60,180 nucleotides of DNA from Atribacterota bacterium (GCA_028717805.1 JAQUNC010000008.1:1-60180), one strand, 5' to 3'; positions 9,526 through 20,732 are shown, counted from the stretch's first letter. Made by a program: numbers and translations. The notes: generated from the sequence alone by a model not told the origin.

Positions 9526-9560
9526 ATAAATCAGGCTGGCAAAAGTCAGCCTGATTTATC
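9526..9560 (+). terminator. Stem-loop after cstA
   Basis: Perfect 13-bp arms ATAAATCAGGCTG (9526-9538) and CAGCCTGATTTAT (9547-9559) with an 8-base loop, 80 bases after cstA. There is no long U-tract; CCTTATC follows. Termination efficiency is therefore uncertain. Confidence 0.6.
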
Positions 9561-9785: not shown

Positions 9786-10412
9786 ATGTACGCATTCCGG
9801 AGTAAGTATATTGCGGTTGAAGGAGCTATTGGTGCCGGAAAAACAAGTTTAGTGCTACAATTGAGCAAACGATATAATGCCCGAGCTATCCTGGAAGTTG
9901 TGGAAGAAAATCCTTTTTTACCTCATTTTTATGAAGACATAAAAGACTTTGCTTTTCGAACCCAGATTTTCTTTTTATTAAGTCGATATGACCAGCAGGT
10001 AAAGGCTGCTCAACAGGACCTTTTCAGACAATTGTCATTTTCGGATTATATGTTTGCTAAAGACCGGATTTTTGCTTACCTTACTCTTTCCGGCAATGAA
10101 CTGGCAATGTATGAACATCTATATCAAATAATATGTCGGGATATACCTGCTCCTGATATGATTGTCTACTTAAGAGCCAGCACCAACTTACTGATGAAAA
10201 GGATAATGCTCAGAGACCGTCCTTTTGAACGTAAAATCTCTGTTCAATATATGGAAAGACTAAATAAATCTTATGAAGACTATTTTACTAATCAGCATAG
10301 TTTTCCCCAAACCAAGCTGGTCATCATTAATGCTGATGAATTAGATTTTGTGGGCAATAGTCGTGATTTAGAGTTTGTGTGTCAGAAGGTTCAAGAGAAA
10401 GACAAAGAATGA
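9786..10412 (+). CDS. Deoxynucleoside kinase, first of a tandem pair
   Basis: Phosphorylates deoxynucleosides for dNTP salvage in the cytoplasm. The 208-residue length matches the bacterial dNK family (dAK/dGK/dCK). The P-loop GAIGAGKT is at residues 13-20. The ENPFLPHFYEDI segment and the SDYMFAKDRIFAYLTL segment (substrate-site region with D and R) are family hallmarks, and the lid arginines appear in MKRIMLRDRPFERKI. It overlaps the second kinase through ATGA at 10409-10412. Tandem dNK genes are known in Lactobacillus and Bacillus, where paired products have different base preference. SDYMF rather than DRS suggests a different specificity from the partner. Confidence 0.9.
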   Translation: MYAFRSKYIAVEGAIGAGKTSLVLQLSKRYNARAILEVVEENPFLPHFYEDIKDFAFRTQIFFLLSRYDQQVKAAQQDLFRQLSFSDYMFAKDRIFAYLTLSGNELAMYEHLYQIICRDIPAPDMIVYLRASTNLLMKRIMLRDRPFERKISVQYMERLNKSYEDYFTNQHSFPQTKLVIINADELDFVGNSRDLEFVCQKVQEKDKE

Positions 10413-11083
10413 GAAAGAGTCACTTAGTTATGAAAAAATTTATTATTATCTCTGGAAACATCGGAAGCGGAAAATCAAGTTTGACCAAGCTTTTGAGTAA
10501 ACGGCTGGGATGGAAGGCTTTTTATGAAGTGGTAGAAAACAATCCCTATTTAGAAGATTTTTATTATGATATGAAAAAATGGAGTTTTCATCTGCAAGTT
10601 TTTTTCCTCTCTAAACGCTTTCAACATCACCAGACTATAGTGAGAGACCCATCTTCTGTGGTACAAGACCGTAGTATTTACGAGGATGTTGATATATTTG
10701 CTAAAAATTTGTATGAACAGGGATTGATGGAACCCCGAGACTATCATAATTATAGAGAGTTATTCAGTATTATGGTGGATTTTTTATCTCCGCCTAATCT
10801 GATAATTTACCTGCAGGCATCTGTTGACACTTTAAAGAGAAGAATTGCCTTACGGGGCAGGGATTATGAGAAAAAAATTTCCAGAGCCTACTTAGAACAA
10901 CTCAATATATTGTATGAGAAATGGTTAGAGGGATTTACTATTTGTCCTATTTTGACAGTTCCCACTGATGATCTTGATTTTGTGCAGAGAACGGAACATC
11001 TGCAACTGATCACTGAAAAAATTCTGACTAAATTGCAGGGAGTAGAAAAAGTCTCTTTTGACTCAACTGATGTTAAGGATTGA
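10409..11083 (+). CDS. Deoxynucleoside kinase, second of a tandem pair
   Basis: A paralogue of the preceding kinase, about 224 residues from this start. The P-loop GNIGSGKS lies at residues 16-23, followed by ENNPYLEDFYYDM, the catalytic VVQDRSIYEDVDIFA motif (DRS) and the lid RRIALRGRDYEKKI. I place the start at ATG 10409, which overlaps the upstream stop (ATGA) and implies translational coupling. An in-frame ATG at 10430 with AGAAAGAG 11 bases before it is an equally possible start. The two products may form a heterodimer, as in the Lactobacillus dAK/dGK pair. A short C-terminal extension follows the kinase domain. Confidence 0.9.
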   Translation: MRKSHLVMKKFIIISGNIGSGKSSLTKLLSKRLGWKAFYEVVENNPYLEDFYYDMKKWSFHLQVFFLSKRFQHHQTIVRDPSSVVQDRSIYEDVDIFAKNLYEQGLMEPRDYHNYRELFSIMVDFLSPPNLIIYLQASVDTLKRRIALRGRDYEKKISRAYLEQLNILYEKWLEGFTICPILTVPTDDLDFVQRTEHLQLITEKILTKLQGVEKVSFDSTDVKD

Positions 11084-11095
11084 ATAGAAAAATTG

Positions 11096-12082
11096 ATGGA
11101 AATGAATTTAAAAAATCTGGATATTCCCGTATTATCTTATCTATCAGAGGAGTATCCCATAGCGATAGAAGAATTAAGTAATAGGCTCTCACTTTCCCGG
11201 GCAGAAGTAGAAAAACAGATTCAGCAATTAAAACAATTAGGATATTCTATTTCTATAAATGATCAAAAAAGTTATCGTATTATTTCCCGTCCTGATATTT
11301 TGTTACCATTTGAGATTAAAAATAAACTAACTACCAGATATATTGGACAAACAATCTATTATTTTCCTGCACTAACCTCTACTAATATAATAGCTAAACA
11401 GAAGATTCTAAGAAAAACCGATAACATACCAGAAGGAACAATTATTATTACTGAGCAACAAAGCGAAGGGAAAGGTAGATTAGGGAAAACATGGTTTTCT
11501 CCAGCAGGTGGCATCTGGCTTTCTATAATATTGTATCCTGAAATTATTTCTTCTTCTATAGGATTAATTACCTTAATGGCTGCTGTGGTTGTAGCTAACA
11601 CAATCAGTAAATTGTTTCCAATTAAGGCGCAAATTAAATGGCCCAATGATATACTTATAGATGATAGGAAAGTATGCGGTATATTAACTGAAATGAGTAC
11701 AGAGACAAAGAATATACAGTGGGTTATAGTAGGAATAGGCATAAATGCCAATAATGACTCATCTGAGTTACCCGAAGATATTCGCAAATGTTCTATTTCC
11801 TTAAAAGAAATTACTGGGCAATTGATACCCCGGGTTATGTTAGTGCAGTATCTTTGTACTGAGTGGGAAAAGTTTTATGAGATGTTGAAAAGAAAAGATT
11901 TTTCCTTAATTTTAGAAGAATGGAAACTCTACAACAATATAATAGGGAAAAGAATTAGGCTGGATACCGAAGAAAAAATTATTGCTGGAGAAGCTATTAA
12001 TATTTCAGATAAAGGTGCCTTAATTTTTAAAACGGATGACGGTAAAACTATGGAAATAATATCTGGTACTGTTCTAAAATAA
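11096..12082 (+). CDS. birA: Biotin-protein ligase / biotin repressor
   Basis: Attaches biotin to carboxylase-type proteins, and in the bifunctional form also represses biotin genes. The protein has an N-terminal winged helix-turn-helix at about residues 5-65 (IAIEELSNRLSLSRAEVEKQI). The catalytic domain has the biotinyl-AMP loop GRLGKTWFSPAGGIWLSI near residue 125 and KWPNDIL near 180. A C-terminal SH3-like domain ends in GALIFKTDDGKTMEIISG. The size is normal for group II BirA. I take the ATG at 11096; TTG at 11093 and ATG at 11102 are also in frame. A bioY transporter gene lies about 5.5 kb downstream on the same strand. Confidence 0.92.
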   Translation: MEMNLKNLDIPVLSYLSEEYPIAIEELSNRLSLSRAEVEKQIQQLKQLGYSISINDQKSYRIISRPDILLPFEIKNKLTTRYIGQTIYYFPALTSTNIIAKQKILRKTDNIPEGTIIITEQQSEGKGRLGKTWFSPAGGIWLSIILYPEIISSSIGLITLMAAVVVANTISKLFPIKAQIKWPNDILIDDRKVCGILTEMSTETKNIQWVIVGIGINANNDSSELPEDIRKCSISLKEITGQLIPRVMLVQYLCTEWEKFYEMLKRKDFSLILEEWKLYNNIIGKRIRLDTEEKIIAGEAINISDKGALIFKTDDGKTMEIISGTVLK

Positions 12083-12115: not shown

Positions 12116-15100
12116 ATGCCAATAATACAAAAAGATACCAGGCAAGTAGTAAAAGATAAAAATCTTTCTACTGAACAAAAATGGTTATTAGATATTTCTT
12201 CTGCTTATTTTGGTATCCATCAGAGAATAATAAATTTCTTGACAGAAATTTACCTTTCTCCTCTCAGACCAAAATTTGTCCATGAAAAACTCAGAGAGAT
12301 AGCCCTCAATGATATGTGGTTTTATAAATCTCACCCTGAAGCGAGTAGGGCTATCAAAGCCATCCTAACATTATTTAATGATATGTTAAATAAAGAGCTT
12401 AATTTTAGGGACAAACAACGAGTTCTGGAAACCTTATTTGAATTCATTCGGGAGTTAGCCAAAGATGACTATATGGAAGTGGAATTAGATTTTCTTGCTG
12501 AAGAAGTGTTTCATATTCTGGATAAAACCTTACACCATGATAAAGATATAAGAATATACTCATCGAGTTTATTAAAAAAGCTTCCTACTCACCTCACCAA
12601 GCATAGAGATTATTCCCGGAGAATGGAGAATTTACTCAGGGTATCTCTAAAGGAAAATATACAGATATGGAAAAATCAGCTGGATTTCCAGGAATGGTGT
12701 CAAAAGCAGGATAAATATTTTTCTGAGAAATATAAGGTAGAAATCTTAAATATCGCTAAAAGAGAAAAACAATTTATTTCCGAAATGCAGGAAAAATTAT
12801 CTCAAGCCCATAACTGGGAGGAACTGGACAGCATCCCTGATTTTAAAGAATGTATAGCTAAATTAATTGGTTACCTTGAAAAAGATGCATCGATTTTAGA
12901 GAAAATACATTTCCTTTATTACTTACTGGAAATCCCGGAAATGATGGGATTAAGAGATTCTCTGTTAGTGGAATTAGCCCAGCTCTATAAAAGGTTTGCC
13001 CCTGAAGATATAGCAGAATTACCTCTGAATAGTTTTTTGACCACTACTTTCTCCCTCTTTAATAGCCTCAAAACTGAAAATATGGAAAAGATTTTAGAAT
13101 GCTTGTTGAGATTGGGGCAAGGTATATATCAAACAGAAGATCAGACCTATATAGATACTTTGATTGAGCATCTTATCAGATTTGGTTTTATTTATCCTGG
13201 TGAAGTAAAAATTAACGATGATTGGCAAATTCAGACCGATAATAATCATCTCAAGATAATTAGATTATGGCTTGAATTAATCAAGTGCTCAATCCGGCAT
13301 AGCAGTAAGCTCATATCTGCTTTAATCGTAAATTTGAAGCTGGGAGGAGTGCTTATTCGAGATGAAGATCTTTTTCAAAGGGATGTTAGCAAATTACTCA
13401 ATAGTGATATCAAATCAAACTATGTGTTAATAAAGCAATTACTAAGCCTTTTTCCGGTTTATTTTAGCGCAGTTGGAGCAGAGGGAAAGATCAGGGAACT
13501 ATCTACAGATATAGATAAACTTTCTTATAGTGAAGATAGATTAATCCATTTTTTAAGAAAGCAAGTACATGTAGAAAGCAATAACTCACAGATAGAACTG
13601 ATAAGAAGAATTTTTTGTTTCTGGTATGACAGGAATCATCACCCTTTATTAGAGTATCTTCCCAGCGATGTTCAAAAAGAGTTGTCTGTGTCAGGAAAGT
13701 GGTTTGATCCGGTACATAATATTACACGTAAGCTTTGTAAAGCAATGAAAGTAAGTCCAGTAGCTATGCTGGAGAAGGATATTGATGAAATAAAAAAGGC
13801 TTTAGAAAAAATCAAAAACCTTGATGACTGTAATAGCAAGCGAATTATTTATCTGATTGAACTTTATCAACTATTAAAACATAAATATACACTGGATTAT
13901 AAATTTATTTGCCTTGATTTGCAAAAATCAAATATTTTTACCATCAGGGAAATAAAAAAGTTAGAAAATAATATTAAAAATGACAAATGTACCGCTTCGA
14001 TAAAACTTATTTATAATATGATCTCCCGCTTAAAGAAAATCATTCTGGAATCTCCCAAGACTGAAGCCCAGGAAAGCATATACCTTAAGCGTCATATTGC
14101 CTCCGGAATTCCTTCCATGTATGGACAATATTATGAACAAAAATTAGTTGCTATGGGATTAATTCTGCGCCTGGAAAAATTAGCAGATTATCTTATCAGT
14201 AAATTAATCAGTCAAAGAAATCTGGATTATATGACTATAGATGGTTTCCATAATGCTGCCAGAATATTAGATTTATTTAAAGAAGGATTAAGTCTAAATG
14301 GAATTTCCAATGAGAATTTTAACTCCCATCTGGAAATGCTTAATTATAGTTTTAAAACTACAACCTTTTCCATGGACCAGTTTGTGAATATTTTCTATTT
14401 TTTTACTCTCAATATTAAAGAAATAATTGATAATTATTATATACTGCCCTTCAGTTCATCTCTGAAAACGATTATTCGGCAAAACATCATGGGGACCGAT
14501 ACTTCTAACAAAACCAATCAGGAGCACATTATCTACCGGAAATCAGAAGAATTTTACCGTGACATAATCGTTGCCGCTTTTTTAGTGCAAAGTTTAGATA
14601 ATTATGTTTCTAAAATACTGAGTACTTTAAGAAATATGATGGCGAGATTAAAACCAGAAGTGATTCATATGTTACTCAATTATAATCCCAAATTATTATG
14701 TACTTCCTTACACAAATCCAATCCTAAAGTAGATAACCAGATATTTTTAGGTGCCAAAGCCTATTATCTTAAAAAATTATATTCCTACAAATTTCCCATT
14801 CCGCCAGGTTTTGTGCTTACTACAGAATGGTTTCGAGATAGAAAAGCTATCATGCAGTTTCCTGAAATGTACCAGGCAATATTGGGGATGATAAGAGATA
14901 AATTAATGGAATTAGAAAGAATAACCAGGAAAAAATTTGGAGATTTAAAAAACCCTCTCTTCCTGGCAGTTCGTTCCGGAACAGTCATTCCCATGCCTGG
15001 AGCTATGGATTCCATTTTGAATATTGGTATGAATGATGAGATTGCCGAAAGTTTAAGCAAAATCCCTGAGTATGGATGGGCAGTCTGGGATTCTTACCGA

Positions 15101-16237
15101 AGGTTATTACAAAATTGGGGCATGGCTCATGGAATAGAGCGAGATGAATTTGACAAACTTATCTTAGGATTTAAACAAAAATATGAAGTAGAAGAAAAGA
15201 GAAAATTTAGCAAAGAACAGATGAAAGCGATTGCCTTTTCTTATAAAACTTTGCTGCTGGATTGTGGGATTAAATTTGAAGAGGATCCCTTCAAACAGCT
15301 GATCCAGGCTATAATTCTTGTATTTCAATCCTGGTACAATGATAGAGCGCAAATTTTTCGTAAAAAGCTTCAGATTGCCGAAGAATGGGGAACAGCAGTT
15401 ATAGTACAGGAAATGGTTTTTGGTAATATTAATACTGAATCGGGGACCGGAGTCTTTTTTACCAAGGTACCATTTGAAAAAAGTTCGGAGGTTACCTTAT
15501 ATGGCGATTTTACCAGTTGCAGTCAGGGAGAAGATATTGTATCTGGATTAGTTTATACTTTACCGGTTTCCGAATTTCAAAATAAAAAATTTCCTCAGTT
15601 TAGAGGAGAGTCTCTGGAAAAACAATTTCCGGAAATTTATCAAGAATTGCTTAGATTAGCAAAAGAGTTAATTTATCAGAGAGGGTATGAGCATCAAGAA
15701 ATTGAATTTACCTTTAAGTCAAAACACAGGCAAGATTTATATATCTTGCAAACCAGACCGTATGCCCTGAAGGATAAAGAAAAAACTCCTATTTTTACCA
15801 GTCCAGATATTCTTAGCCATCTGGCTGGATCGGGTATCGGAGTCGGTAGAGGGGCAATGAATGGTCGTGTTGCTTTTAGCCTGGATGATATAAGACTGCT
15901 GGCAGAAAGATATCCTCAAGAGCACAAGATTTTAATTCGACCTGATACAGTACCGGATGATATTGAAATGATATTTGAATGTGATGGACTGTTAACTTCA
16001 CGTGGCGGAGTCACCTCTCATGCAGCAGTCACCGCTGCCCAGTTAGGTAAAGTTTGTGTGGTGAATTGTAAACACTTAATAGTACTAGAAGGGGAAAAGA
16101 AATGCATTATTAATAATACGGAATTCAAAACTGGTGATAAAATTGCCATAGATGCCTACCTGGGGAATATCTATAAAGGTCATCATGCTATTGATTTAGA
16201 ACAAATATCTTATTTTAATGAGAAGGGAAACCTATAA
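12116..16237 (+). CDS. Large PPDK-like phosphotransferase with an unknown helical N-terminus and no PEP/pyruvate barrel
   Basis: A 1373-residue protein. Residues 1 to about 880 are helix-rich, lysine- and leucine-rich, and match no domain I recognise. From about 890 (YKFPIPPGFVLTTEWF) to 1215 is the ATP-grasp domain of pyruvate phosphate dikinase, with LAVRSGT near 950 and MPGAMDSILNIG near 960. The swivelling phosphohistidine domain follows at about 1245-1360, with catalytic H1302 in SRGGVTSHAAVTA. The protein ends there, so the C-terminal TIM barrel that binds PEP/pyruvate in PPDK and PPS is absent. It should autophosphorylate from ATP, but the acceptor is unknown. Rifampicin phosphotransferase also lacks the barrel, but places its substrate domain between the other two. 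It overlaps or abuts a divergent GAPDH-like gene. Confidence 0.85.
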   Translation: MPIIQKDTRQVVKDKNLSTEQKWLLDISSAYFGIHQRIINFLTEIYLSPLRPKFVHEKLREIALNDMWFYKSHPEASRAIKAILTLFNDMLNKELNFRDKQRVLETLFEFIRELAKDDYMEVELDFLAEEVFHILDKTLHHDKDIRIYSSSLLKKLPTHLTKHRDYSRRMENLLRVSLKENIQIWKNQLDFQEWCQKQDKYFSEKYKVEILNIAKREKQFISEMQEKLSQAHNWEELDSIPDFKECIAKLIGYLEKDASILEKIHFLYYLLEIPEMMGLRDSLLVELAQLYKRFAPEDIAELPLNSFLTTTFSLFNSLKTENMEKILECLLRLGQGIYQTEDQTYIDTLIEHLIRFGFIYPGEVKINDDWQIQTDNNHLKIIRLWLELIKCSIRHSSKLISALIVNLKLGGVLIRDEDLFQRDVSKLLNSDIKSNYVLIKQLLSLFPVYFSAVGAEGKIRELSTDIDKLSYSEDRLIHFLRKQVHVESNNSQIELIRRIFCFWYDRNHHPLLEYLPSDVQKELSVSGKWFDPVHNITRKLCKAMKVSPVAMLEKDIDEIKKALEKIKNLDDCNSKRIIYLIELYQLLKHKYTLDYKFICLDLQKSNIFTIREIKKLENNIKNDKCTASIKLIYNMISRLKKIILESPKTEAQESIYLKRHIASGIPSMYGQYYEQKLVAMGLILRLEKLADYLISKLISQRNLDYMTIDGFHNAARILDLFKEGLSLNGISNENFNSHLEMLNYSFKTTTFSMDQFVNIFYFFTLNIKEIIDNYYILPFSSSLKTIIRQNIMGTDTSNKTNQEHIIYRKSEEFYRDIIVAAFLVQSLDNYVSKILSTLRNMMARLKPEVIHMLLNYNPKLLCTSLHKSNPKVDNQIFLGAKAYYLKKLYSYKFPIPPGFVLTTEWFRDRKAIMQFPEMYQAILGMIRDKLMELERITRKKFGDLKNPLFLAVRSGTVIPMPGAMDSILNIGMNDEIAESLSKIPEYGWAVWDSYRRLLQNWGMAHGIERDEFDKLILGFKQKYEVEEKRKFSKEQMKAIAFSYKTLLLDCGIKFEEDPFKQLIQAIILVFQSWYNDRAQIFRKKLQIAEEWGTAVIVQEMVFGNINTESGTGVFFTKVPFEKSSEVTLYGDFTSCSQGEDIVSGLVYTLPVSEFQNKKFPQFRGESLEKQFPEIYQELLRLAKELIYQRGYEHQEIEFTFKSKHRQDLYILQTRPYALKDKEKTPIFTSPDILSHLAGSGIGVGRGAMNGRVAFSLDDIRLLAERYPQEHKILIRPDTVPDDIEMIFECDGLLTSRGGVTSHAAVTAAQLGKVCVVNCKHLIVLEGEKKCIINNTEFKTGDKIAIDAYLGNIYKGHHAIDLEQISYFNEKGNL

Positions 16238-16238
16238 A

Positions 16239-17483
16239 TTGGACTCAAATAGTACAAAGAATCGCCTGGGTATTAATGGATTAGGCAGAATTGGTAAATT
16301 AACCTTATGGTATCAGCTGCAGGAAAATCATTTTGATAGTTTTATAATAAATATAGGGCGTTCGGTTGGAACTAATCTGGTAGATATTGCCAATTTGATA
16401 GCTACAGATTCCACTTATGGCTCTATAGAAAGATTTTTATTTGGTATAAAGGCAGAAAAAGATATTAAGATTATTAATGAAAAAGAAAATCTTTTAGAAA
16501 TTTTTGGGAAACCAGTAAAAATATTATGTCAAGCGAGAAATCCCAGAAATATAGGCTGGAAAGAATATGGAGTAAAAATAGTTATTGATACTACTGGTGC
16601 TTTTAATGATCCTACTGTTGCTGAAGATAATGATATAGGTAGCCTGAGAGGGCATCTATTTGCCGGAGCTCAAAAGGTTATTAATAGTGCACCTTTTAAA
16701 ATAAAAGATAAATCCAGAAAAATGCCGGTGGACTGCAGTACCCTTATTTATGGTATTAATCACACTTCCTTTAATCAACATAAGCATAACATTATTTCTG
16801 CCGCTTCATGCACTACTACTGCTTTAGCCCACATGGTAAGACCTTTACTAGAAAGAGAAGAAACCAAAAATATACTAACAGCATCCTTATCCACCATTCA
16901 TGCTGCCACTAATAGCCAACGAGTGCTTGATTCACTGCCTGGTGCTGGTGATACAGATTTACGAAAAAATAGAATGGTCTTTAATAATATTATCCTTTCT
17001 ACTACTGGGGCTGCCAATACCTTAGAAAAAGTTTTGCCAGAGGTGAAAAGGGTTGGTTTTATGGCAGATTCTGTTCGAATTCCCACCGATACCGTTTCTC
17101 TCATTATTTTAAATCTTACTTTTCATACCTATTTGGATAAAAGAGGAAATTCTATCATTAATCGAGAATTTCTGAATAGTATCTATCAGAACACAGCTCA
17201 AGGAGCACAAAAAAATCTTTTATGTTACAGCGATAATCAGAATGTATCATCAGATTTAAAAGGAAAACTGTATGCAGTTGTTATAGAGGGTCATGATACT
17301 CATACTCGAACTGGATTTATCAGCCTTAATCCGGGAATGCTGCAAAAGGTGGGATTCAATTCTGATAAAACAATTGATATTCCAATAACTCACTCTACCT
17401 TATTTGGATGGTATGATAATGAATATGGCAGTTATGTTCACTGTTTAGGGAAGCTGGCTATCTATATTGATAAAAACTTATAA
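16239..17483 (+). CDS. Divergent glyceraldehyde-3-phosphate dehydrogenase-like protein
   Basis: About 414 residues, against about 335 for a typical GAPDH. The N-terminal Rossmann motif is GINGLGRIG (residues 11-19). The catalytic cysteine is C191 in SAASCTTTALAHM, where canonical enzymes have SNASCTTN-x-LAP. The partner histidine is H221 in STIHAATNSQ. WYDNEYGSY near the C-terminus is the standard GAPDH motif. Extra sequence lies near residues 120-150 and near 325-350. I chose TTG at 16239 because GAGAAGGGA lies about 10 bases before it; ATG at 16218 would overlap the preceding gene and has no ribosome site. Catalysis appears possible, but the substituted cysteine loop suggests altered substrate or cofactor use. 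Confidence 0.85.
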   Translation: MDSNSTKNRLGINGLGRIGKLTLWYQLQENHFDSFIINIGRSVGTNLVDIANLIATDSTYGSIERFLFGIKAEKDIKIINEKENLLEIFGKPVKILCQARNPRNIGWKEYGVKIVIDTTGAFNDPTVAEDNDIGSLRGHLFAGAQKVINSAPFKIKDKSRKMPVDCSTLIYGINHTSFNQHKHNIISAASCTTTALAHMVRPLLEREETKNILTASLSTIHAATNSQRVLDSLPGAGDTDLRKNRMVFNNIILSTTGAANTLEKVLPEVKRVGFMADSVRIPTDTVSLIILNLTFHTYLDKRGNSIINREFLNSIYQNTAQGAQKNLLCYSDNQNVSSDLKGKLYAVVIEGHDTHTRTGFISLNPGMLQKVGFNSDKTIDIPITHSTLFGWYDNEYGSYVHCLGKLAIYIDKNL

Positions 17484-17544
17484 ATATATTAAAAACAGTG
17501 GAAAGATATATTATTAAAGAACATTGTAAATTGTAGGTTTGCCA

Positions 17545-18084
17545 ATGAAAAAAATAACTATTCGTCAAATGACTCTGGTTTCCCTATTTGCAGCACTAAC
17601 TGCTGCCGGTGCTTTTATTTCCATTCCTATTGGCATAGTTCCCATAAGTTTACAAAACCTGTTTACTTTTTTATCCGGAATGGTTTTAGGAAGCAGACTG
17701 GGTGCTTTTAGTCAATTAATCTACATCTTGCTGGGAGCAGTGGGTTTACCGGTCTTTTCCGGGTTTAGAGGAGGCTTAGGGATTTTAGTGGGACCAACTG
17801 GAGGTTTTTTAATAGGTTTTGTTATCTCTGCTTATGTTATTGGAAAACTCATTGAAAAGTTAAAAGAAGCCAGCATATGGTCTTATTTTACTGTGGGATT
17901 ACTGGGAGCATTTATAATATATCTTACTGGAGTAATCCAATTATTAATTATCACCAGAATAGGGATAAAGGAGGCTGTCCTGGTGGGAGCAATTCCCTTT
18001 TTACCGGGTGATTGTTTAAAAGTGATTATTGCTTCTTTCCTTGCCCTCAGACTAAAATCAGTGGTTTCCTTACCTGAGGTGTGA
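17545..18084 (+). CDS. bioY: BioY biotin transporter substrate-binding (S) component
   Basis: A membrane protein of about 180 residues with six hydrophobic segments. The conserved N-terminal LFAALTAAGAFISIPIG-x-VPISLQNLF and the FRGGLGILVGPTGGFL-G block identify BioY of the ECF transporter group. It captures biotin and normally works with the general ATPase/transmembrane ECF module, which is not in this window. The start is ATG at 17545; a TTG at 17539 is in frame but not needed. It lies 61 bases after the GAPDH-like gene. No clear BirA palindrome was found upstream, although TTGTAAATT at 17524 resembles one half-site. Confidence 0.93.
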   Translation: MKKITIRQMTLVSLFAALTAAGAFISIPIGIVPISLQNLFTFLSGMVLGSRLGAFSQLIYILLGAVGLPVFSGFRGGLGILVGPTGGFLIGFVISAYVIGKLIEKLKEASIWSYFTVGLLGAFIIYLTGVIQLLIITRIGIKEAVLVGAIPFLPGDCLKVIIASFLALRLKSVVSLPEV

Positions 18085-18106: not shown

Positions 18107-18184
<78 letters not shown>

Positions 18185-18364
18185 CCTACTTTTTATTAAT
18201 CTTATTACTAAGTTCCTTTCAAGGTTATATTCGAAGATACTATTTAATGATTTTATTGCTTGATTTATGTTAATTTGCTATCATAATTAATAGACAAATG
18301 AATGTAAATTTCTACTAATATCTCAAAAAATAGTAAGTTTAAATAACAATTTTAAGGAAATACT

Positions 18365-19954
18365 ATGTATCACACAAAAACCCTACTTACAATTAAAGAA
18401 GCAAGCCAATGGGCAAGTGATTTTTTACAGAGAGAAATTAGTGAGTCTAATATATCCTATTTAATTCAGTATGGAAAAGTAAGAAAATACAATGGCGGGA
18501 ATTCGATACTGGTAGATGTAGATGATTTAAGACATTATTACCAGTCTTATCGAGGTTGGCGTGAAATAAATTGGAAAAAGCAACTGGGTGAAGATTTAAA
18601 TTGGTCCTTATCTTTTGATCACTTAAGAGAAAAAGATACTACAAAGCATGTGCATCGCTTACACCCATACAAAGGAAAATTTATCCCCCAGCTGGTTCAA
18701 TATTTTATAGATGATCATATAGATGATTTTAAAAAAGGTGTTTATTTTAAGCCTGGAGATATTATTCTTGATCCTTTCATGGGTTCTGGAACCACGTTGG
18801 TACAAGCTAATGAAATGGGAATGCATTCCATAGGAATTGACATATCTCGGTTTAATTGTCTGATTGCAGAAGCAAAACTACTTAATTATGATTTTACTTC
18901 TCTGGAAAAGGAAATCAGAAAAATTCAAAAGGCTATTGCTGAATTTGAATCTAAAAGCAATGTTAGAGATTTTGAAGAAGAACTGTTGTTACAATTAGCC
19001 GAATTTAATCGCAAGCATTTCCCCAGTCCGGAATTCAAATATAAGGTGAACACAAAACGAATAGATGAGGAGCAATATGGTGCTGAAAAAGAACAAGAGT
19101 TCTTAGATATTTATAATGATCTGGTTAAAAAATACAATATTGAACTTAATCATTTTTCTGCTCAAAACTTTTTAGATAAATGGTATATCAGGAATGTAAA
19201 AAAAGAGATTGATTTTGCCTTCGAGTTAATTAAAAAAATTGAAGATATAAAAAACAAAAAGATTTTAGCAGTAATATTAAGTAGAACAATTAGATCCTGT
19301 CGTGCTACAACACATTCAGATTTAGCTACCCTTAAAGAACCACAAGTAACTACTTACTATTGTTGGAAACACAAAAAAATATGTAAACCAATTTTTTCTA
19401 TAAAAACGTGGTTTAATCGTTATGCAATTGATACATTTTACCGATTAAAAACTTTTTCTCAACTTAAAACCCATTCTTATTACATAATTATTTCTTCCGA
19501 TTCTCGTACAATGGATATTTTTAAGGAAATTGAAAAACGAAATAAGAAATTTTATGAATTATTGTTAAAAAATAAAATCCAGGGGATTTTTACCTCTCCA
19601 CCTTACGTTGGGCAGATTGATTACCATGAACAACATGCTTATGCCTATGATCTTTTTGGTTTTCAACGTAAAGATGAACTTGAAATAGGTCCTCTATATA
19701 AAGGAAAAGGACCAGAGGCACGAGTTGCTTATGTAGAAGGAATTTCAAAAGTTTTACTGAATTGCCGAAATTTTTTAGCAAAAGATTTTAACGTATTTTT
19801 AGTTGCTAATGATAAGTACAATCTATATCCAGAAATTGCTCAGCGAGCTAGTATGAAGATTATAAACCAGTTTAAACGCCCTGTATTAAATAGGACGGAA
19901 AGAGACAAATCTCCCTATTCTGAGACGATATTCCATTTAAAAGATAGAGAATAA
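18365..19954 (+). CDS. Type II DNA methyltransferase (N4-cytosine/N6-adenine class)
   Basis: Modification enzyme of a restriction-modification pair, 529 residues. The AdoMet-binding motif is DPFMGSGTT at residues 136-144 and the catalytic motif IV is TSPPY at 410-414. TSPPY is typical of N4-cytosine or N6-adenine amino-methylases. Motif I precedes motif IV with about 265 residues between them, so the target-recognition region is probably internal, as in alpha-class order. HPYKGKFIPQLVQYF upstream of motif I is common in this group. The N-terminal 60 residues look like a helix-turn-helix/excisionase-type DNA-binding segment (LTIKEASQWASDFL). The endonuclease starts one base after its stop codon, so the two are cotranscribed. 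Confidence 0.9.
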   Translation: MYHTKTLLTIKEASQWASDFLQREISESNISYLIQYGKVRKYNGGNSILVDVDDLRHYYQSYRGWREINWKKQLGEDLNWSLSFDHLREKDTTKHVHRLHPYKGKFIPQLVQYFIDDHIDDFKKGVYFKPGDIILDPFMGSGTTLVQANEMGMHSIGIDISRFNCLIAEAKLLNYDFTSLEKEIRKIQKAIAEFESKSNVRDFEEELLLQLAEFNRKHFPSPEFKYKVNTKRIDEEQYGAEKEQEFLDIYNDLVKKYNIELNHFSAQNFLDKWYIRNVKKEIDFAFELIKKIEDIKNKKILAVILSRTIRSCRATTHSDLATLKEPQVTTYYCWKHKKICKPIFSIKTWFNRYAIDTFYRLKTFSQLKTHSYYIIISSDSRTMDIFKEIEKRNKKFYELLLKNKIQGIFTSPPYVGQIDYHEQHAYAYDLFGFQRKDELEIGPLYKGKGPEARVAYVEGISKVLLNCRNFLAKDFNVFLVANDKYNLYPEIAQRASMKIINQFKRPVLNRTERDKSPYSETIFHLKDRE

Positions 19955-19955
19955 T

Positions 19956-20732
19956 ATGGCACTTACTATCCAACAAAGTAAACAAATAAAAGATTATTTA
20001 ATTGGGAAGATCCACAATAAGCTGGCAACTTATGCTCCTGAAACAAATTATATGCCTTTTCATTTTCGCTTACTTGGCAAAGATAGAATGGCTATATTTT
20101 CCTTTATTCAATCAGTTAACACAATGTTAGGTACTTCAATATTTGAACAAATTGGGAAATTGATAGCTGAACCAAAAGCAAAAATGGCTATTGGTCAATA
20201 TAGAGAATTTGTAGGTTATATCAGTAGTGAGTCAGTTTTAACAATTGATAGAATTATGCGTGATTTACGATCAGCTTTGCGCAAACCTGATAAAGAAAAA
20301 GAGACTGATGAGATTTTAGAGGTTGCCAAGAAAGGAAATTTAGGAAGGAAATTGAAAAAACGAGTTGACCTTTATATAGAAATGAATGGCATAGAATATT
20401 ATTTTGAAATTAAAACTGCTAAACCAAATATCAATGAATTCATTGGGATAAAAAAGCAATTATTGGATTGGATTGCAATGCGAAGTAGTGAAAAAACTGA
20501 TGTAAAAATTAAAACTATAGTTGCTATTCCTTACAATCCTTATGAACCGAAACCTTATGAACGCTGGACCTTGCAGGGGTTATTTGATTTATCGGAAGAA
20601 GTGTTAGTGGGTCATGAATTTTGGGACTTGTTAGGTGGGGAAAATACTTATGAAGATTTATTAAAGATATTTGAACAAGCAGGGTCAGAGTTATATGATG
20701 AGATTGATAAAAAAATTAAAACACTAAAATGA
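19956..20732 (+). CDS. TdeIII-family Type II restriction endonuclease
   Basis: A 258-residue nuclease that would cleave DNA unmethylated by its partner. The PD-(D/E)xK core is visible as D138 in KKRVDLYIE and E151-I-K153 in YYFEIKTAKPN. The preceding GQYREFVGYISSES and the TIDRIMRDLRS block look like the TdeIII-type restriction enzymes. It begins at ATG 19956, one base after the methyltransferase stop. Recognition site is not deduced here. Gene order (methylase first, nuclease second) protects the host during expression. Confidence 0.85.
   Translation: MALTIQQSKQIKDYLIGKIHNKLATYAPETNYMPFHFRLLGKDRMAIFSFIQSVNTMLGTSIFEQIGKLIAEPKAKMAIGQYREFVGYISSESVLTIDRIMRDLRSALRKPDKEKETDEILEVAKKGNLGRKLKKRVDLYIEMNGIEYYFEIKTAKPNINEFIGIKKQLLDWIAMRSSEKTDVKIKTIVAIPYNPYEPKPYERWTLQGLFDLSEEVLVGHEFWDLLGGENTYEDLLKIFEQAGSELYDEIDKKIKTLK

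Follow-up and report, generated by a model that had tools for sequence, protein, structure and literature searches.

A stretch of DNA from an Atribacterota bacterium (GCA_028717805.1 JAQUNC010000008.1:1-60180, 60,180 nucleotides, called "the window" here) encodes a barrel-less homologue of pyruvate phosphate dikinase (PPDK), designated PPDKL, directly followed by a divergent homologue of type I glyceraldehyde-3-phosphate dehydrogenase (GAPDH), designated GAPL. We tentatively favor a reading in which PPDKL, as a dikinase whose acceptor domain would be new, acts at the GAPDH node of metabolism, with 3-phosphoglycerate as the leading candidate for its acceptor and GAPL as a possible NADPH-linked partner. 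The evidence lies in the architecture of PPDKL, in two conserved patches within its N-terminal region, and in the association of its gene with several kinds of GAPDH gene across unrelated bacteria.

PPDKL carries, in one chain and with intact residues, the ATP-grasp and swivelling phosphohistidine domains that the dikinase superfamily requires. Pfam placed PPDK_N best over residues 926 to 1146 (E = 1e-25) and PEP-utilizers over residues 1268 to 1349 (E = 4e-16); the PEP-utilizers_C barrel was not found in PPDKL by Pfam, and the PDB search gave no barrel match either. In the latter, residues 877 to 1356 matched residues 18 to 509 of the 873 of PPDK (1kbl, 9pzl), a match that ends before the barrel and leaves only ~17 residues of PPDKL after the phosphohistidine-domain match. 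Against NCBIfam, PPDKL scored 341 bits with the PPDK model TIGR01828 (below its cutoff of 843), 257 bits with the short PPDK model NF004531 (534 positions; cutoff 456) and 60 to 73 bits with phosphoenolpyruvate (PEP) synthase models. Conservation was assessed as invariant columns over 35 full-length PPDKL homologues (28 sequences in an earlier version), in all of which H1302 and the ATP-grasp residues K881, R953, E1195, E1197, Q1212 and R1214 were identical. These results bear out the original prediction, made from the sequence of the window, of a 1,373-residue, barrel-less PPDK-like protein with its catalytic histidine at position 1302, and the direct adjoining of the ATP-grasp and phosphohistidine domains (Pfam, PDB match) agrees with its claim of a domain order unlike that of rifampicin phosphotransferase.

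In place of a C-terminal barrel, PPDKL has an extra N-terminal domain of ~870 residues, kept in all complete members. No Pfam match over cutoff and no NCBIfam or PDB sequence relative was found for residues 1 to 870, and AlphaFold2 predicted residues 1 to 872 to be all-helical (predicted local distance difference test score [pLDDT] of 75; nine sequences), with residues 376 to 872 again helical in a second model; the region was thus rightly described at the outset as helical and of no known family. A PDB fold search of the helical N-terminus gave no significant match (all E > 0.001; template modeling score about 0.2 or less), its weak and nonsignificant resemblances being to alpha-solenoid (HEAT-type) folds. 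A known PEP/pyruvate fold, one of the two findings named beforehand as fatal to the idea, is rejected here, as neither a sequence match nor a significant fold match was obtained. Pfam matches to Peptidase_S48 and HEAT in this region were rejected as subthreshold and different from member to member. The AlphaFold2 model of residues 376 to 1373 (pLDDT 87; 28-sequence alignment) superposed on PPDK 1kbl over 542 columns at 2.9 Å, and matches in a fold search of this model were confined to the PPDK half and its relatives. Since 1KBL belongs to a conformer cluster with the phosphohistidine domain beside the nucleotide domain (PMC5371819), H1302 is modeled in the pose for autophosphorylation.

Conservation within the N-terminal region is concentrated in two patches. 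Invariant columns made up 1.3% of residues 1 to 375 (5/375), 21% of residues 376 to 500 (patch A; 26/125), 3% of residues 501 to 640, 25% of residues 641 to 700 (patch B; 15/60) and 3% of residues 701 to 872, compared to 20% of the ATP-grasp domain and 14% of the phosphohistidine domain. Patch A has the motif D-x-D-x-FQ ... GAEG..R...T ... HFxRKQxHxE, and the invariant N-terminal residues are mostly polar (D416, D418, Q421, R460, H478, R481, K482, Q483, H485 and E487, with K658, R659, H660, S667, Y669, K676, R685 and E687 in patch B). Both patches thus match the ATP-grasp domain in invariance, which suggests that PPDKL has a second active site, and their richness in D, R, K, H and E would be expected of a site that acts on an anionic small molecule. 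The KRHIAxGIPSMYG segment of patch B was modeled as a beta-hairpin with a loop (residues 659 to 666) of pLDDT < 50 in an otherwise confident model; the two patches possibly form the acceptor site, with this loop as a mobile lid.

GAPL starts before PPDKL has ended, the genes overlapping by 20 bp, so that the two are probably translationally coupled. GAPL is longer than ordinary GAPDH (421 versus ~335 residues, ~85 of them extra), scored 280 bits against the GAPDH-I model TIGR01534 (NCBIfam; cutoff 367) and formed its own clade in a GAPDH tree (100/100). A Bacillus GAPDH row served only as a ruler for numbering, and the comparison itself rests on GAPDHs from the loci. The altered active-site loop noted in the original prediction is there in its letters, SAASCTTT replacing SNASCTTN, but the catalytic Cys198 and the His227 that lies after it are retained, as are Thr179 and Arg231 of the phosphate site, and GAPL is therefore probably an active dehydrogenase and not a dead enzyme. 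In the aligned GAPL members, the NAD-binding Asp32 (within (I/V)ND of ordinary GAPDH) is replaced by Gly-Arg, and the resulting N-x-G-R motif also occurs in loci L155 and L158 to L161. N-x-G-R in place of the NAD-binding Asp is seen in NADP-binding dehydrogenases (Rossmann enzymes). Given the loss of Asp and the gain of Arg, GAPL is likely of the NADP type, and use of NADP(H) is predicted.

Over two surveys, GAPL was found solely in genomes with PPDKL (19/19) and usually just downstream of it: 9 of 50 Atribacterota genomes encoded GAPL, all nine with PPDKL, and 10 of 198 Bacteroidota genomes, all ten with PPDKL (Fisher 4e-9 and 1e-12, respectively, values that ignore the relatedness of the genomes). 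The two genes are adjacent and in the same order in Atribacterota and both Bacteroidota orders, and in an independent sample, taken after the idea had been formed, they were adjacent in five of seven genomes of other families. The gene-neighborhood survey proposed beforehand thus found that the linkage persists in several lineages of bacteria. PPDKL and GAPL also gave correlated identity matrices (r = 0.97; 18 genomes). Among GAPL-free Bacteroidota, an ordinary GAPDH gene lies divergent to PPDKL at 0.3 to 3.7 kb in five of seven genomes (L113, L114, L121, L123 and L126). At five Bacteroidota loci, a distinct divergent GAPDH clade is represented in tandem about 5 to 215 bp upstream of PPDKL, forming GAPDH-PPDKL-GAPL triplets in L083, L111, L112, L119 and L120 (L119 stops at the contig end); genomes with these triplets also encode an ordinary GAPDH elsewhere. 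In all, three or four GAPDH lineages accompany PPDKL in three arrangements, and GAPDH is its sole recurrent neighbor across phyla, no other gene occurring in more than three loci outside Atribacterota.

Further observations concern individual loci. In one unrelated lineage, the gene immediately upstream of PPDKL (L155:7660-8658) encodes a very divergent GAPDH-like protein of 332 residues with GTCTGN replacing ASCTTN. No GAPL was found between PPDKL and bioY in L036:5955-10650 (genome G009) or in L044:1-886, a fragment in genome G022 that shares ~90% identity with PPDKL of the window and could be a contaminant. A long GAPDH of ~500 residues (NF006139) was found in Bacteroidota of the order of G062 (L148 to L153 as examples) in 6 of 7 genomes with PPDKL but without GAPL, in 0 of 10 with GAPL and in 21 of 181 free of PPDKL (Fisher 6e-4 and 3e-5); it may stand in for GAPL or may just be a lineage marker.

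Full-length PPDKL occurs in Atribacterota, in two Bacteroidota/Ignavibacteria orders and in another four families of bacteria. Homologues were 56 to 78% identical in the ten Atribacterota genomes (in two of which the gene is incomplete, at a contig end), 37 to 40% in Bacteroidota and 33 to 44% in the other four families, a recurrence that speaks against a chance arrangement. It was present in 10 of 50 Atribacterota genomes (G015 being counted from a C-terminal fragment at the end of a contig), in 5/16 and 17/198 genomes of the two Bacteroidota orders, in 1/395 genomes across Bacteroidota and in 7/336 other bacteria, spread over the four families. In a tree, the PPDKL domains formed a single clade beside the PPDKs (97/91), and the nesting of Atribacterota within Bacteroidota sequences suggests horizontal transfer.

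By homology, PPDKL would derive from PPDK and retain its first half-reaction, in which ATP phosphorylates H1302 and AMP is released. The pyruvate barrel would have been replaced by the all-helical acceptor domain ahead of the ATP-grasp domain, and the swivelling phosphohistidine domain would deliver the phosphoryl group to an acceptor bound by patches A and B. Because the constant genomic companion is a GAPDH, whether GAPL, the upstream variant or an ordinary enzyme, this acceptor would most likely be a metabolite of the GAPDH node. Polar patches that suit a small molecule, GAPDH companions that point to the node and a predicted use of NADP that suggests reduction make conversion of 3-phosphoglycerate to 1,3-bisphosphoglycerate the simplest fit, and 3-phosphoglycerate the leading candidate. 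GAPL with NADPH could then reduce 1,3-bisphosphoglycerate to glyceraldehyde 3-phosphate, for a net one-way, AMP-forming bypass of phosphoglycerate kinase analogous to that of PPDK and PEP synthase around pyruvate kinase. The earlier suggestion of an unknown acceptor coupled to triose-phosphate chemistry is better supported than it was, by three kinds of adjoining GAPDH and an invariant polar site, though the acceptor and the coupling are both still inferred. In its strongest form, the proposal seems to us unlikely: PPDKL (a dikinase of 3-phosphoglycerate or another C3 compound with a new acceptor fold) and GAPL would together turn phosphoglycerate into triose phosphate by a new irreversible route that forms AMP and uses NADPH, that runs alongside phosphoglycerate kinase and GAPDH, and that has spread horizontally among unrelated bacteria.

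Several points weigh against the favored reading. Phosphoglycerate kinase was present in 16 of 16 PPDKL genomes tested, so that PPDKL would bypass or control that enzyme's step and not replace it, and another GAPDH was present in 21 of 22 Bacteroidota PPDKL genomes, with an ordinary GAPDH also encoded in the window's genome; PPDKL and GAPL as a necessary replacement of phosphoglycerate kinase or as the sole GAPDH are ruled out on these grounds. Glycerate, glyceraldehyde, dihydroxyacetone or a protein would fit as acceptor equally well. PPDKL also occurs without an adjacent GAPL (G009, L113, L114, L117, L121 to L123, L156 and L157), and in G009 it is intact and 97% identical to that of G008 while GAPL is gone. 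The co-occurrence counts are, moreover, uncorrected for relatedness.

A possible alternative, nearly as likely as the favored reading, is that PPDKL is a regulatory phosphohistidine kinase that autophosphorylates H1302 and controls GAPL or GAPDH by binding or phosphotransfer, the helical N-terminus serving as the docking part. The model for this is VadK (Rv1127c), a PPDK without a barrel that is found in mycobacteria and related genera. It autophosphorylates on His422 and binds both methylcitrate synthase and methylcitrate dehydratase, whose genes lie next to its own (PMC13400623). Regulation of this kind would be consistent with a partner GAPDH whose kind varies while PPDKL stays, and with the weak resemblance of the alpha-solenoid-like residues 1 to 375 to protein-binding repeats. 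However, those residues are barely conserved, and conservation falls instead in polar patches at residues 376 to 500 and 641 to 700 alone, which suits a small-molecule site better than a surface for docking. A domain of this kind is also absent from VadK, and GAPL can be lost from genomes that keep PPDKL.

More doubtful is a reading in which the substrate of PPDKL is a small molecule from outside the GAPDH node and GAPL uses an aldehyde or acyl phosphate other than glyceraldehyde 3-phosphate, the two forming a new pair of kinase and acyl-phosphate reductase. Such pairs are common in metabolism (aspartokinase and aspartate semialdehyde dehydrogenase, for example), and the subthreshold score of GAPL, its changed loop and its insertions are compatible with another substrate. 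Against it, the ordinary GAPDH beside PPDKL in GAPL-free genomes ties the system to ordinary triose-phosphate substrates. Improbable, in our view, is a reverse, glycolytic direction, in which H1302 takes its phosphoryl group from 1,3-bisphosphoglycerate or another phosphorylated C3 compound, and AMP and pyrophosphate yield ATP and phosphate. By score the ATP-grasp domain is of the PPDK and not the PEP-synthase type, and PPDK operates this way in bacteria and protozoa (PMC5371819), but the predicted NADP preference of GAPL suggests the biosynthetic direction. Finally, an ordinary PPDK decayed by truncation or rearrangement would explain the missing barrel but is ruled out by the same architecture in several lineages, the invariant catalytic residues, the predominance of change at third codon positions (0.15, 0.10 and 0.29 at the first, second and third) and a separate full-length PPDK encoded elsewhere in the same genome.

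Positions of PPDKL, GAPL and associated features (window coordinates unless a locus is given)
Feature	Position	Strand	Basis or remark
PPDKL, barrel-less PPDK-type dikinase, 1373 aa	12116..16237	+	Open reading frame call, Pfam, NCBIfam, PDB match, orthologues
PPDKL residues 1-375, fast-evolving helical, alpha-solenoid-like region	12116..13240	+	AlphaFold2, conservation
PPDKL residues 376-500, conserved patch A, proposed acceptor site	13241..13615	+	Conservation, AlphaFold2 model
PPDKL residues 641-700, conserved patch B, KRHIAxGIPSMYG	14036..14215	+	Conservation, AlphaFold2 model
PPDKL residues 873-1215, PPDK-type ATP-grasp domain, catalytic residues retained	14732..15760	+	Pfam, NCBIfam, PDB match, fold superposition, conservation
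PPDKL residues 1216-1373, swivelling phosphohistidine domain, GGVTSHAAV	15761..16234	+	Pfam, PDB match, conservation
PPDKL catalytic H1302	codon 16019-16021	+	
GAPL, divergent type-I GAPDH homologue, 421 aa	16218..17483	+	Open reading frame call, Pfam, NCBIfam
GAPL cofactor motif INIGRSVG (family: N-x-G-R-x-[VI]-G)	16347..16370	+	
GAPL active-site loop SAASCTTT with catalytic Cys198	16797..16820	+	
birA, biotin-protein ligase	11093..12082	+	Operon neighbor in Atribacterota only
bioY, biotin transporter	17539..18084	+	Downstream neighbor in Atribacterota only
Upstream variant GAPDH	L083:2096-3094; L111:7688-8704; L112:4955-5968; L119:5431-6432; L120:6930-7928		

In the window, the genes run dNK-dNK-birA-PPDKL-GAPL-bioY on one strand with small gaps, preceded by a terminator-like hairpin (9526-9559) behind cstA. 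A functional tie to deoxynucleoside kinases or biotin was dropped, as the adjacency of dNK, birA and bioY is conserved within Atribacterota only. The two tandem deoxynucleoside kinase paralogues (9786-11083) are ~35% identical, are conserved as a pair in Atribacterota and could form a heterodimer. Farther downstream (18107-20732), genes for a DNA methyltransferase and a restriction endonuclease of the TdeIII type come after a tRNA-Pro gene. This mobile restriction-modification cassette next to a tRNA was present in some relatives (L036 and L040), was reduced to fragments in L035 and was not detected in others.

What defines a dikinase is the acceptor domain supplied by its swivelling phosphohistidine, in the known cases a pyruvate barrel, a rifampin/phenol domain or a glucan site. 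If PPDKL does carry an all-helical acceptor domain across several lineages, it would represent a new dikinase substrate class. The module of PPDKL and GAPDH suggests that central sugar metabolism includes a reaction or a point of control that has yet to be described, and the tie to GAPDH makes its function directly testable, either as a new step at the GAPDH/phosphoglycerate node or as histidine-kinase control of GAPDH, which would parallel that of the methylcitrate cycle by VadK. Homology-based annotation is likely to label PPDKL and GAPL as PPDK and GAPDH, and metabolic models of the bacteria that carry them would be misled as a result. Barrel-less PPDK has a precedent in VadK of mycobacteria (PMC13400623), and other acceptor domains (rifampin phosphotransferase [RPH], PMC4844700; HpeHI, PMC12167813) and divergent GAPDHs are likewise already known. 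The family and structure libraries and the literature searched yielded no match for the acceptor-like helical domain, for the order of domains in PPDKL or for the cross-lineage module with GAPDH, and no described PPDK-GAPDH pair was found in a literature search that covered few subscription papers.

Among known systems, PPDK (TIGR01828; 1kbl) shares with PPDKL the ATP-grasp and phosphohistidine domains, aligned over their full length with catalytic residues kept, and forms the neighboring clade, but PPDKL lacks the C-terminal PEP/pyruvate barrel and has the ~870-residue helical N-terminal domain. Glucan water dikinase, also of the dikinase family, has its phosphohistidine domain before the ATP domain and possesses carbohydrate-binding modules; neither that order nor those modules occur in PPDKL. 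Type I GAPDHs (TIGR01534), including NADPH-linked gluconeogenic forms, have in common with GAPL the fold signature, the catalytic Cys and His and the phosphate-binding positions, whereas GAPL differs in its SAASCTTT loop, N-x-G-R motif, ~85 extra residues and separate clade. VadK resembles PPDKL as a barrel-less PPDK whose gene adjoins those for enzymes of one central pathway, and its autophosphorylation indicates that a barrel-less PPDK can still perform the first half-reaction; it consists of the ATP and phosphohistidine domains only (about 50 kDa), whereas PPDKL adds a large domain with a conserved site and has a GAPDH partner. RPH (PMC4844700) likewise combines an ATP-grasp domain, a mobile phosphohistidine domain and a non-barrel acceptor domain, but in the order ATP-grasp, acceptor, phosphohistidine, compared to putative acceptor, ATP-grasp, phosphohistidine in PPDKL, and with a weaker structural match. 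The two-component dikinases HpeHI, PpsAB and CreHI (PMC12167813) also have a non-barrel acceptor domain but are made of two polypeptides and act on phenolic substrates, and HpeI matches the PPDKL model weakly.

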